Below, piece after piece: positions 19,728-25,650 of a stretch of DNA of 64,000 nucleotides. The notes under the pieces were generated by a model. That model was given only the letters and a program-made list of their open reading frames with translations. It made no database searches and was not told the origin of the DNA. The stretch is from Candidatus Nitrosotenuis uzonensis (lineage in GTDB: Archaea > Thermoproteota > Nitrososphaeria > Nitrososphaerales > Nitrosopumilaceae). Made by a program: the position numbers and the translations under genes. The DNA is taken from assembly GCF_000723185.1 (NCBI RefSeq), contig NZ_CBTY010000006.1, forward strand, positions 186,001-250,000, written 5' to 3'. Positions within the stretch are counted from its first letter, which is position 1. Each line of letters starts with the position of its first letter.

Positions 19728-21431
19728 TCACTTGTGAGTGTAAATTGCCTGCAACTGTGAATCCTTTCTGCAGTAACCAAATCTAACAAACTGAATTTCT
19801 GCTCCCTCTTTGAGCTGGTTGTAATATGGTTCTGTAAATACGTTGAGCTCCTCAAGACTATTCTCATTGAATTCTTCTCCATGAAACAGTATGCTTGGAA
19901 CCAGTATCTTTAGTCTCTGTGCAGTGTTCTCTGATAACCAATGTATCTTTGGAATATCTTGTCTCAAGTCGTCTCCTGTGTATTGACCTTCAAGAGCAGA
20001 ATCATTGCGTGTTATCTTGATGTTGCCAAGTCCCATGAATCGTATCGTATCTTCTGGCTTTGCACGTGCCAAGTCGTCTTCCTCAACTAGGAGACTCTGT
20101 CCTAGCTCGACAATCCTTGTACCAAGATCTTTTGTAGGGTGATTATGCATAGTTATTGTCTTTGGCAGCCCACTCACATCAATTACCTTGGGGTTTTTTA
20201 TCATATGAAGCCTAATACTTTCACCATCAACTATTTTGCGATTGAATGATTCTAGTGTTTCAAACGGGGCTTGAGTGTCTGCCTTTGTGAACCCAAGGGA
20301 GAGGACGAATTTTCTTATGGCATCCGGCCTTATTCCGCGGCGCCTAAGTGCTTCAAGTGTGGGAAGACGGGGATCATCATATCCTGAAACCTTTCCCTCT
20401 TCGATTAGTGGTCTTAGAATCCTCTTTGAGACAGGCATGCCCTCAAAACCCAGTCTTGAGAATTCAATCACCTTGGGTTTGCGCATCTTTAATGCTTCCA
20501 GTATGGAATAATACAACTCGTTTCTCAGCTCATACTCTTTAGTCCTGAATGCATGCGTTACCCCATCAATACTGTCCTCTATTGCAACTGCAAAATCGTA
20601 ACTTGGATATACCCTGTACTTGTCGCCAAGTAATGGGTGTTTTGTCTCTATTATTCTGAACATTACAGGATCCCTCATCACGGTATTCTCAGACTTCATG
20701 TCTCCACGAAACCGTACTATTGCATCACCCTGTTTGTATTTTGAAAACATCTTCTCCCATCTGTCAAAATTCTGCACCTGTTCTCCGAGGCTGCATTTGC
20801 AAGCTTTCATTTCACGCCTGTTGGCAGAAATTGTCTCCTGTTTGCAAGTGCATACATACGCAAAGCCGCCTTCTAGCATCTCTTTGCCCTTTTTGTAGAG
20901 AATCTCAATGTCATCTGAGGTGTTTTTTACAACATCATATCTTACACCAAGCCAATCTAGGCCTACTTTTATTGCTGCATAATATTCAAGTCTTTCAGCC
21001 TCCGGGTTGGTATCGTCAAATCGCAGGATCAGTTTTCCACCATACATTCGTGCATATTCTTCATCAATTATGGCCGCCTTTGCATGCCCTATGTGGGGGT
21101 AACCGTTGGGTTCTGGGGGAAATCTTGTTATCACCTTTCCATGTTCTGCTCCTTCAAGAGGAGGCAATCCCTGCTGTTCTTCATGCTTTGGTTTTTCCTC
21201 AAGAAGATCAGCAAAATTCTGTTCCACCTCTTTTCTTATCTGGCTAGCGCTCATCTTGTTTACCGATGCAACTATTTCAGAAATGATTGGCATTATCTCC
21301 TTGACATGTGCCCGCAGATGTGATTCTTGGCCAAGCACCTTGGCAAGAACTATTTTGTCTTGCGTTTTTCCATGATCAAGAGCATTCTGCAGCGCTAACT
21401 TGCGTATTTTCTCCTTTGTCTCATCGTCCAA
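19728..21431 (-). CDS. gltX: Glutamyl-tRNA synthetase (archaeal type)
   Basis: A 567-residue class I synthetase with RFPPEPNGYPHIGHAKAA, the archaeal/eukaryal HIGH motif, and MPVSKRIL as the KMSKS-type loop. An N-terminal ~95-residue extension precedes the catalytic core, and the C-terminus has the beta-barrel type anticodon domain of the GlnS-like family. It charges tRNA-Glu and, in archaea, tRNA-Gln indirectly. TTG 21431 follows the prenyltransferase stop by 1 bp, so co-transcription is clear. Confidence 0.95.
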   Translation of the reverse strand: MDDETKEKIRKLALQNALDHGKTQDKIVLAKVLGQESHLRAHVKEIMPIISEIVASVNKMSASQIRKEVEQNFADLLEEKPKHEEQQGLPPLEGAEHGKVITRFPPEPNGYPHIGHAKAAIIDEEYARMYGGKLILRFDDTNPEAERLEYYAAIKVGLDWLGVRYDVVKNTSDDIEILYKKGKEMLEGGFAYVCTCKQETISANRREMKACKCSLGEQVQNFDRWEKMFSKYKQGDAIVRFRGDMKSENTVMRDPVMFRIIETKHPLLGDKYRVYPSYDFAVAIEDSIDGVTHAFRTKEYELRNELYYSILEALKMRKPKVIEFSRLGFEGMPVSKRILRPLIEEGKVSGYDDPRLPTLEALRRRGIRPDAIRKFVLSLGFTKADTQAPFETLESFNRKIVDGESIRLHMIKNPKVIDVSGLPKTITMHNHPTKDLGTRIVELGQSLLVEEDDLARAKPEDTIRFMGLGNIKITRNDSALEGQYTGDDLRQDIPKIHWLSENTAQRLKILVPSILFHGEEFNENSLEELNVFTEPYYNQLKEGAEIQFVRFGYCRKDSQLQAIYTHK

Positions 21432-21432
21432 A

Positions 21433-22410
21433 TTACAAACTCCTTTTTACGACAAAATCCAAAAGCGACATCATCTCTGACTTGGCTGTACCTGAATATG
21501 GTGATAATGCATTCCTTGCCTTTTCTGCATACTGCAAGGCTGATTTCCTCACATCGTGCTCTATCTGAAGCGAGCGCATTAATTCCACTGCCTGATTTAT
21601 CTGGCTTTTTGTTGCCTTGGGGTTTCCAAAAACTGCCATTATTGCCTTTTTCCTTTTAGCGTCCGCCTTTCTTATTGCCAAAACTATGGGAAGTGATTTT
21701 TTGCCTTCGCGTAGATCATTTCCCACCGGCTTCTTTGTCACTTTTGGATCCCCTAGCACGCCGATAAGATCATCAATTATCTGGAATGCCACGCCCAAGT
21801 TTCTTCCAAATGATGCAAGATTTTCGATATCTCTTCCTGTTCTCTTGGCGCATATTGCTCCCATGGCACACGAAACCTCAAAGAGGGCTGATGTTTTTTT
21901 CTCCACCATCTTTATGTAGTCTTCTCTCTTGGGAATTTTCTTTCCTTCCGCCATCTTTATGTCAAGCACTTGTCCCTCGCAGACATCCACACATGCTTCT
22001 GCAAGCCTTTCTACTAGCTTTGATGAAACTGCTGTATTATGGACGTTGGAAATGGAAACGGTCTGAAACGCTTTTGAGAAAAGAACATCGCCTGCAAGTA
22101 TGGCAAGAGGCATCCCGTACCGTGTATGCACTGTGGGAACGCCATGCCTTATCTCGTCATTGTCCATGATATCATCATGAACAAGCGTGAAATTGTGGAT
22201 CATCTCTATTGCAGATGCAGCTGCGAGGGCGTCTTTTATTGAACCTCCAAGCATCTGGCAGCTCTTAATTACAAGGTATGGGCGTAACCTTTTTCCGCCA
22301 TTAACTATGAGGTGTGAAGCAGCTCTGTAAAGTTCCTCGGGTCTTCCATCAAGTCTTACCTTTAGGTATCTGTTTACCTGTTTTGCTGTGTTCGGAAGAG
22401 TTGAGGTCAA
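21433..22410 (-). CDS. idsA: Trans-prenyl diphosphate synthase (GGPP/FPP synthase)
   Basis: A 325-residue type I polyprenyl synthase. The first aspartate-rich motif is DDIMD in FTLVHDDIMDND; the second reads DDLIG, followed by GDPKVTKKPVGNDLREGKK, so the last acid of DDxxD is a glycine. It makes the C20 chain for archaeal lipids. TTG 22410 overlaps the idi stop by 4 bp. It sits downstream of mevalonate kinase, isopentenyl phosphate kinase and the Nudix protein, which together supply its substrates. Confidence 0.92.
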   Translation of the reverse strand: MTSTLPNTAKQVNRYLKVRLDGRPEELYRAASHLIVNGGKRLRPYLVIKSCQMLGGSIKDALAAASAIEMIHNFTLVHDDIMDNDEIRHGVPTVHTRYGMPLAILAGDVLFSKAFQTVSISNVHNTAVSSKLVERLAEACVDVCEGQVLDIKMAEGKKIPKREDYIKMVEKKTSALFEVSCAMGAICAKRTGRDIENLASFGRNLGVAFQIIDDLIGVLGDPKVTKKPVGNDLREGKKSLPIVLAIRKADAKRKKAIMAVFGNPKATKSQINQAVELMRSLQIEHDVRKSALQYAEKARNALSPYSGTAKSEMMSLLDFVVKRSL

Positions 22411-23039
22411 TTCAACAGTCTCCAGTTACCTGTTGGAAAGTGATGTTTAAGTGATTCTTCCAGCCTGTTTTTTTGTTCTATCCACTTTGCAAGTGTTTTA
22501 TGGTGTTTTTGCAGCATGGTGTTATCTGATTTTTCCAAAAGATGCAGAGCAACTAGCATCCAAGGGCAGTAATTCTGGGGATTCCTTTCTATATCGGAGA
22601 ACAACTCATCAGGGGATGCCCACTTTACCTCGCTTATCTCGTCCTCCACCAACTTGACCGAAAACGAATCGTCAACTATTCCCACAAGAGTTCCGCAGAT
22701 CTCGTTCTCAGAGCCTATGTTCTTGTATGGTACATGGTATTCGAACTTGAACAAATAGTCCAATCTGCACGAAGCGCCTATCTCCTCTGGAAGCCTTCTC
22801 TCAGCAGATGAGACGTACGTTTCGCTCTTCCTTGGATGGCTTGCCACCGTTCCATCCCAGTCCCCTGGCCAAAGCATCTTGCTTGGGCTTCTTCTGGTCA
22901 GCAATAATCTGTCTTTTTTATCAAATAAAAGTACTGTGAATGCCCTGTGAAGCTTGCCATCAGGTAGGTGACATCTCACCTTCTCTTCCATTCCAATGGG
23001 ATTGTCATCCTTGTCTACCAAAATGAGATATTCTGACAT
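22407..23039 (-). CDS. idi: Type 1 IDI-like Nudix protein lacking the catalytic cysteine
   Basis: A 210-residue Nudix protein with isopentenyl diphosphate isomerase type 1 features: LWPGDWDGTVASHPRKSET, AERRLPEEIG (Nudix helix) and ENEICGTLVG, which holds the conserved catalytic glutamate. The catalytic cysteine of the CxHP motif is replaced by Ala66, with Ser67 next to it. It is placed between isopentenyl phosphate kinase and prenyl synthase, so a role with IPP/DMAPP is near certain; whether it is an isomerase or a Nudix hydrolase is open. Start ATG 23039. Confidence 0.75.
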   Translation of the reverse strand: MSEYLILVDKDDNPIGMEEKVRCHLPDGKLHRAFTVLLFDKKDRLLLTRRSPSKMLWPGDWDGTVASHPRKSETYVSSAERRLPEEIGASCRLDYLFKFEYHVPYKNIGSENEICGTLVGIVDDSFSVKLVEDEISEVKWASPDELFSDIERNPQNYCPWMLVALHLLEKSDNTMLQKHHKTLAKWIEQKNRLEESLKHHFPTGNWRLLN

Positions 23040-23869: not shown

Positions 23870-24829
23870 CTATGTTAGCTCAAGTTTGTGTTGCAGTCCT
23901 AGCATATCCACTTTAACTCCGAAACACTGATGCCCGCTCTCACAGAGAACCTTCATGGTACTTTCAATGTTGGACTGGTCCACTAGTGCGATAATGCATC
24001 CTCCATCTCCGGCCCCGGTTATCTTTGCGCCGTAGCTGGTGCTCTTTGCAAGATCCACCATGACGTTAAGCTTATCATTTGATACGCCAATCTGTTCAAG
24101 ATATTTCTGATTCTGAGACATTCTCTGACCGACAACTCTAAGATCACCATTTTTGAGTGCTTCCAGTGCATCTTCGATCAGCCTTTCCTCTTGGGTGCAT
24201 AAGAGTGAGAATATTGCAGGATTGTTGTCTTTGTATTTTCTTACACGCGACACAACGGAGCTTGTCGAATGAGAGATCTGCGAGTCTGCCACGATCAGAG
24301 TGAAATTGGGCTCAAAATCCAATTTGGCAGCATACCCGTCGCGATGGTATTCTATTGCGCCTCCAAGAGTGCATACTGTGGTGTCTGCCCCTGAAGTGCT
24401 CTCAAATACTGTTCTTTCTGCTTCTAGTGCAAGCTCAAGTACGCGATCCCTTGTCTGGTCTGCAAAGAGCCCCAGAATGGAGCTTGCTGCAGCAACACAG
24501 CATGCAGATGAGGAACCAAGGCCTACTCCTGCAGGAAATTCTGCATATATGCCGATCCTGATACCCGATGTGGAATTGTATTCTGCAAGAATCTTCTTCG
24601 CAAGGTGTACGATCGGTCTTAAGGACGGCTCAACAGAAGACACTTGGTCACTAGTTGATAACAGCGCGTTACCAACCGATGATGTTATCTCTATTTTACC
24701 ATTGTCCATTAGCTCAGACTCTACTGTTATTCGCCTATCTATGGCGCACAGTATTGCTTTTCCGCCATATACGATAAAGTGTTCACCAAACAAGATTATC
24801 TTGCCTGGTGCAGATGATACCGACTTCAA
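23870..24829 (-). CDS. mvk: Mevalonate kinase
   Basis: A 319-residue GHMP kinase. Motif 1 is APGKIILFGEHFIVYGG, motif 2 is PAGVGLGSSSACCVAA, and motif 3 is KITGAGDGGCIIAL. It phosphorylates mevalonate at the start of the lower pathway to isoprenoids. It overlaps the upstream MEMO1 gene by 4 bp. The other pathway genes are not in the window. Confidence 0.92.
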   Translation of the reverse strand: MKSVSSAPGKIILFGEHFIVYGGKAILCAIDRRITVESELMDNGKIEITSSVGNALLSTSDQVSSVEPSLRPIVHLAKKILAEYNSTSGIRIGIYAEFPAGVGLGSSSACCVAAASSILGLFADQTRDRVLELALEAERTVFESTSGADTTVCTLGGAIEYHRDGYAAKLDFEPNFTLIVADSQISHSTSSVVSRVRKYKDNNPAIFSLLCTQEERLIEDALEALKNGDLRVVGQRMSQNQKYLEQIGVSNDKLNVMVDLAKSTSYGAKITGAGDGGCIIALVDQSNIESTMKVLCESGHQCFGVKVDMLGLQHKLELT

Positions 24830-25650
24830 CTAAACACAATTGAGGCGTAGCCTACAACGGAGTCCTTGCTTCCCGCAACGTCGCCGCTTGTGGCGTATTT
24901 GAGAAGCATTGCTTCCCTTGCGCCAAGTTCCTTGCATGCAACCATTGTAGCTGCAATCGCACCGTATCCGCACGCACTCACCCTCCTGTTCTCTAGCACA
25001 TCGTAGAATCTTTCCACATCCATTTCTAGTATGGGCTCAATTAGCGCTTTGTCTTGTCTGTGCGCTATTTCGTTCTGCTCGTAGTGTGTAAAATCCGAAG
25101 AGCCTATTATCACTGCTTTTTTCTCCTTGGCAATATTGGCTACAGCCCGCCCAACTTCCAATGCAAATTCATAGTCTTGGTTTAAAATGCAAATCGGCAG
25201 GATTGTGAATTTGGACTTGTAATATTGGAGCATGGGCACCTGTACCTCTATGCTATGTTCTCGTGTGTGGGAGAAAAAGTCTATCTCTATCATTCTGGAC
25301 AATTTGTTTATTTTTTCTGCAGCATCCGAGTCAACTTCCACGTTGCCCAGAGGGCTGGCCCAAACTGCATCCTTCATAGTGGCCACTTGGCAACCAAGAC
25401 CCCAGTGATTAGGGCCTAGTATTATTGCAACTTCAAAGTCCTGTTCAGATATTGCCTCAAACGAGTGAGTTGCAATAGGACCAGAATACATGTATCCTGC
25501 ATGGGGACAGATTGCGCCAAATATCTTCTTTGACAGCTTGGTTTTGCCTACGCCGTATTCGTTGTAAATGGAACTCTTGATTGACTGTATAAGCTCATCC
25601 TTTTCGCTTGGGTAGAACATGCCAGCAACCGCCGGTGTTCTAACTCGCAT
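24826..25650 (-). CDS. MEMO1 family protein
   Basis: A 274-residue MEMO protein (AmmeMemoRadiSam system protein B), starting MRVRTPAVAGMFYPSE, with PHAGYMYSG and GPNHWG metal/substrate residues, GSSDFTHYE and ACGYGAI. The family resembles extradiol dioxygenases, with an unknown reaction in archaea. It is conserved between rps2 and mevalonate kinase in many archaea, as here. Its start is 1 bp from the rps2 stop. Confidence 0.93.
   Translation of the reverse strand: MRVRTPAVAGMFYPSEKDELIQSIKSSIYNEYGVGKTKLSKKIFGAICPHAGYMYSGPIATHSFEAISEQDFEVAIILGPNHWGLGCQVATMKDAVWASPLGNVEVDSDAAEKINKLSRMIEIDFFSHTREHSIEVQVPMLQYYKSKFTILPICILNQDYEFALEVGRAVANIAKEKKAVIIGSSDFTHYEQNEIAHRQDKALIEPILEMDVERFYDVLENRRVSACGYGAIAATMVACKELGAREAMLLKYATSGDVAGSKDSVVGYASIVFS

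Follow-up and report, generated by a model that had tools for sequence, protein, structure and literature searches.

The cysteine of type-1 IPP isomerases belongs to textbook catalytic chemistry, and mutants lacking it in yeast and E. coli IDI are reportedly inactive or nearly so; the E. coli C67A variant is inactive. Protonation of IPP by type-1 enzymes is believed to fall to a glutamate, and removal of the C2 proton to the conserved cysteine, which is catalytic in E. coli (PMC3509576). Cys87, Glu149, Tyr137 and Trp197 of human IDI are all reported to be indispensable (PMC11415240). The box that defines Nudix hydrolases is GX5EX7REUXEEXGU, and the corresponding isomerase box has RR (PMC5389931). 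The IDI1 of Thaumarchaeota has already been recorded as horizontally acquired (Lombard 2012, PMC3533463), and in the literature searched, with most subscription journals outside it, we found no report of a missing cysteine in this protein. Here we describe a gene from Candidatus Nitrosotenuis uzonensis for which the annotation "isopentenyl-diphosphate isomerase" conceals an altered active site. It suggests that very common ammonia-oxidizing archaea make an essential lipid building block without the cysteine used by other type-1 enzymes.

A type-1-like gene within an isoprenoid operon

The window is the whole stretch of DNA that was analysed, 64,000 nucleotides in length, and all positions refer to it. 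The gene and its neighbours are as follows.

19728..21431, minus strand, glutamyl-tRNA synthetase-like ORF (GluRS), the downstream neighbour, named from sequence alone; same order at 74 of 80 loci
21433..22410, minus strand, polyprenyl (GGPP-type) synthase; PF00348, E 1.5e-74
22407..23039, minus strand, Cys-less type-1-like IPP:DMAPP isomerase gene; ATG start, intact ORF, 210 aa
23040..23783, minus strand, isopentenyl phosphate kinase (IPK); NF040647, 202.4 bits, cut-off 120
23870..24829, minus strand, mevalonate kinase; TIGR00549, 203.3 bits, cut-off 163
24826..25650, minus strand, MEMO-family protein, a conserved neighbour; PF01875, E 1.4e-80

The placement of the gene between IPK and a prenyl synthase, proposed in the first-pass annotation, is confirmed by the flanking NF040647 and PF00348 matches, and the three genes follow one another on the minus strand at spacings of 0 and -4 bases. 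Within contig reach, the order MEMO, mevalonate kinase, IPK, isomerase-like gene, prenyl synthase and GluRS recurs at 80 of 80 Nitrosopumilaceae loci, and the gene is retained in the same operon even in a streamlined 0.8-Mb genome. The encoded protein passes both curated IDI-1 equivalog models by small margins (NF002995, 138.4 bits against a cut-off of 127; TIGR02150, 111.7 bits against 105.8), whereas scores with Nudix hydrolase models are 43-54 bits, where 152 and 300 would be required. The AlphaFold (AF2) model, with a mean pLDDT of 87.7, finds its best structural match in E. coli IDI (1hx3_B; VIA Z 21.5, rmsd 2.5 A over 175 residues), followed by the hydrolase-like 2fkb (Z 20.1, rmsd 1.8 over 160 residues), which is nearly as close, so that fold alone cannot separate isomerase from hydrolase. 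The nearest PDB sequence is likewise 1hx3, which itself carries Ala at the E. coli Cys67 position. The C-terminus (residues 165-210) is extended by helical sequence in which W186, H200 and W206 are conserved; the sampled canonical bacterial enzymes have no such extension.

An alanine in the place of the catalytic cysteine

The active site was compared between 116 sequences of the clade and 18 canonical Cys-type enzymes (plasmid-borne bacterial copies, a distant archaeal locus designated L087, E. coli and human). The codons on which the comparison turns are listed below.

22971..22973, minus strand, Cys23, beside the metal ligand His24; Cys in 113 of 116 clade sequences and also in human IDI1
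22833..22859, minus strand, WDGTVASHP motif, residues 61-69, aligned with the 18 Cys-type IDI-1 enzymes, in which the canonical form is W-x-N-[ST]-x-C-x-H-P
22842..22844, minus strand, Ala66 (GCA), aligned with the catalytic Cys67 of E. coli IDI
22839..22841, minus strand, Ser67; shared with Cys-type enzymes such as human IDI1
22794..22796, minus strand, Arg82, giving isomerase-type RR for hydrolase RE; invariant in clade and canonical sets
22701..22709, minus strand, E111-N-E113, metal site and catalytic Glu (E. coli E114/E116); invariant in the 116 clade and 18 canonical sequences
22695..22697, minus strand, Cys115; the same in all clade members but not constant among canonical enzymes, of which E. 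coli has Cys
22566..22568, minus strand, Cys158, candidate replacement thiol; Cys in 116 of 116 clade sequences, Thr in nine and Ser in nine canonical enzymes
22560..22562, minus strand, Trp160 (E. coli Trp161, human Trp197); invariant in clade and canonical sets

The ORF is as first described, and its alanine does align with E. coli Cys67. Every member of the clade has Ala where all 18 sampled canonical enzymes have the catalytic Cys, and only two residues common to these 18 have been lost in the clade, Asn63 to Gly and Cys66 to Ala. The alignment of archaeal homologues that had been suggested as a check returned Ala in all of the approximately 120 Nitrosopumilaceae homologues inspected, at identities down to 44%. 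These comprise 110 of 110 family members among 111 homologous loci and six further homologues read separately, and in five divergent members (44-62% identity) Ala66, Ser67, Cys115 and Cys158 are all kept. A degenerate DNA pattern for WDGT[VF]ASHP, counted across 250 Nitrosopumilaceae genomes, occurs in 215, including 125 of the 131 with a completeness of 90% or more. Three of the six near-complete genomes without the pattern hold a variant gene that still encodes Ala66, and no gene was detectable in the other three, which are fragmented assemblies of 120 to 240 contigs. A type-1-like gene is likewise present in all 36 Nitrosopumilaceae within a draw of 250 genomes from the phylum. Ala66 is thus a family-wide state, neither a local mutation nor chance.

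The 111th locus, L087 (G234:C59:3045-3515), is a distant Cys-type IDI-1 (WSNTCCSHP) from another lineage of the phylum. Its genome is 62% complete and without a type-2 isomerase, and the protein shares 53% identity with one encoded on an Aromatoleum plasmid; the gene may have arrived by horizontal transfer or contamination.

Around Ala66 the type-1 active site is otherwise retained. Seventeen positions (K20, H24, H31, A33, R50, K54, H68, P69, R81, R82, E86, G88, Y101, E111, E113, E134 and W160) never vary in the clade and vary little or not at all among the canonical enzymes. They include the complete metal-binding His/His/His/Glu/Glu set (H24, H31, H68, E111, E113), the complete diphosphate-binding Lys/Arg set (K20, R50, K54, R82) and the active-site Tyr and Trp of type-1 enzymes (Y101, W160). 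The glutamates of the ENEIC segment, which the first-pass annotation reported as remaining, are thus in place. It also reported the Nudix helix as remaining, and a helix is there, though of another form than in hydrolases: the sequence is R81-R82-L-P-E-E, Arg82 standing where RE-U-x-EE has Glu, and the wider segment (S67-X5-E73-X7-R81-R82-L-P-E-E-I-G-A) departs from the hydrolase box. In this phylum the hydrolases among IDI-like Nudix proteins carry R-E at the helix and neither that Tyr nor that Trp. Maximum-likelihood analysis recovers the Cys-less proteins as a single group (100/99), with all sampled Cys-type enzymes as its sister (87/81) and the hydrolase-type group (98/92) separate from it; on this limited sampling, the cysteine may have been lost or never present in the clade.

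Elsewhere in the phylum, a genome that is 95% complete and has only a weak type-2 match (E 8e-6) encodes another Cys-less IDI/Nudix-like protein (L137 / L165; G218:C20:58622-59086), with WEFP-ASH, Tyr and Trp kept and RT in the helix. The gene lies outside any isoprenoid operon and is possibly a second independent Cys-less case. A scan of viral contigs with a canonical IDI query gave no match.

Predicted function and the alternatives to it

No type-2 isomerase was found in the source genome (99.7% complete) with TIGR02151 at E<=0.001, the search that had been proposed for this genome, nor in any of 250 Nitrosopumilaceae genomes at E<=1e-20. Within the phylum draw of 36 Nitrosopumilaceae and 214 other genomes, 204 of the 214 others have a type-2 isomerase above the cut-off, and the 36 gave matches at E between 1e-5 and 1e-3 or no match at all. 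We considered a hidden type-2 isomerase in the family and rejected it, as the weak matches in some genomes (E 1e-6 to 1e-3) fall far under the 281-bit cut-off. Two other genomes of the phylum, G201 and G206 (94-97% complete), have neither a type-2 match at E<=0.001 nor a type-1 match. Four genomes of sister lineages have a type-2 isomerase ORF where Nitrosopumilaceae have the Cys-less gene, with IPK on one side and the prenyl synthase on the other; three of them (G192, G209, G221) belong to the same taxonomic order as Nitrosopumilaceae, and G001 represents another lineage. Since the slot is held by IDI-2 in these four, the Cys-less gene took it over in place, and it has replaced the type-2 isomerase in the same operon slot. 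This takeover is strong but indirect evidence that the two have the same function. In the source genome TIGR02150 matches only the gene at 22407-23039; six Nudix proteins are recognized by PF00293, and a motif scan found no C-x-H in the three of these that were fully read.

The family-wide loss of type-2 isomerase, the replacement in the operon slot and the retained type-1 residues together strongly favour an isomerase. What speaks against it is that the missing Cys is reported as indispensable in human IDI and catalytic in E. coli, and that the Asn of W-x-N, shared by all sampled canonical enzymes, has gone as well. The protein probably works like a type-1 isomerase, and it is most likely the sole IPP/DMAPP isomerase of Nitrosopumilaceae, working without Cys66. 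It would represent a Cys-less clade beside the Cys-type type-1 isomerases, lacking one feature that defines the family. One of the two readings offered by the first-pass annotation, an isomerase with another acid/base, is therefore strongly favoured as to the isomerase. Its suggestion of Ser67 as the compensating residue was considered and set aside, because human IDI1 and many Cys-containing enzymes share this serine (Cys-Ser-His-Pro), which makes it an unlikely replacement. Docking has placed the homologous serine of the tomato enzyme on the diphosphate (PMC11415240).

The other reading was a Nudix pyrophosphohydrolase that converts IPP or DMAPP into the monophosphate, with IPK then rephosphorylating it to the diphosphate, as plants do. 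The Nudix fold, the strong structural likeness to 2fkb, the adjoining IPK gene and the presence of Ala, Ser or Thr for Cys in Nudix proteins of this phylum that resemble IDI all speak for such an activity. We nevertheless regard it as very improbable and did not find it borne out: RE-U-x-EE is RR in every clade member, as in isomerases, so that the helix is without the hydrolase Glu; Y101, W160 and the H-P motif, which hydrolase-type relatives lack, are kept; and the gene occupies a slot that elsewhere holds IDI-2, so that Nitrosopumilaceae would be left without a known isomerase. Its link to IPK also has another explanation. In the modified archaeal mevalonate pathway IPK turns isopentenyl phosphate into IPP. 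AcnX, of the phosphomevalonate dehydratase family (E 6e-119), and two UbiD-family proteins are encoded in the source genome and fit this pathway. IPK is then an on-pathway step, and a recycling phosphatase is not required to explain it. A catalytically dead or regulatory homologue, with DMAPP supplied by another, unknown enzyme, would accommodate the missing essential Cys, and isomerase activity is at present a prediction. No other catalytic or metal residue has been lost in any member, and the gene stays in its operon at all 80 loci, which makes this reading very improbable as well.

For an isomerase, the clade protein would run the type-1 protonation-deprotonation reaction, with C4 of IPP protonated by metal-bound Glu113 together with Tyr101, the tertiary cation steadied by Trp160, and the C2 proton removed by a base other than residue 66. 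Because Glu113, Tyr101 and Trp160 remain, the missing partner is the base. The clade-specific Cys158, two residues ahead of Trp160 and, in the AF2 model, where helix 159-166 begins, is the best candidate, though less likely than not to be that base; the argument for it amounts to one evolutionary event. Other candidates are Cys23, Cys115, a metal-bound water and the substrate diphosphate. The equivalent of Cys115, Cys118, is still present in the inactive E. coli C67A variant, which counts against Cys115 alone. Loss of the cysteine may instead simply be tolerated, leaving a slow enzyme in which Glu113, water or the diphosphate of the substrate serves as second base. In its favour, the demand for DMAPP is low in slow-growing organisms, conservation extends to all other residues and every replacement residue is only a candidate; against this stand the reportedly inactive or nearly inactive Cys mutants of yeast and E. 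coli, and the invariant, clade-specific D62, C158 and C115, which suggest a refitted site. We consider tolerated loss a possible but somewhat unlikely explanation, and rather doubtful, too, is the composite proposal that a relocated thiol, Cys158 beside the Trp, carries out the type-1 reaction in an enzyme that displaced the flavin isomerase in the same operon. Some haloarchaeal type-1 isomerases may read WDGTVASHP and have CPW, which is a lead only; if they do share these features, the Cys-less clade would be wider and the covariation of Cys158 would gain independent weight.

Comparison with known isomerases and hydrolases

If our reading is correct, an abundant archaeal family depends on a Cys-less enzyme, the isomerase reaction has another solution, and the DMAPP step of crenarchaeol lipid synthesis is filled in. 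The clade resembles type-1 IPP isomerases (E. coli Idi, human IDI1) in its fold, its metal site, its diphosphate-binding residues, Y101, W160 and the RR Nudix helix, and differs from them in the change of the catalytic Cys to Ala, of W-x-N to W-D-G and of Ser/Thr158 to Cys; relative to E. coli IDI, the protein at 22407-23039 also has the additional C-terminal helical extension. With the FMN-dependent type-2 isomerase (IDI-2) it shares the predicted reaction and the operon slot of sister lineages, although the fold and chemistry of that enzyme are unrelated and it does not occur in Nitrosopumilaceae. With the Nudix pyrophosphohydrolases (YfcD 2fkb; AtNUDX1) it has in common the Nudix fold and, for IDI-like members, a His near the Nudix helix, but these enzymes carry RE-U-x-EE where the clade protein combines RR with the isomerase Tyr and Trp.
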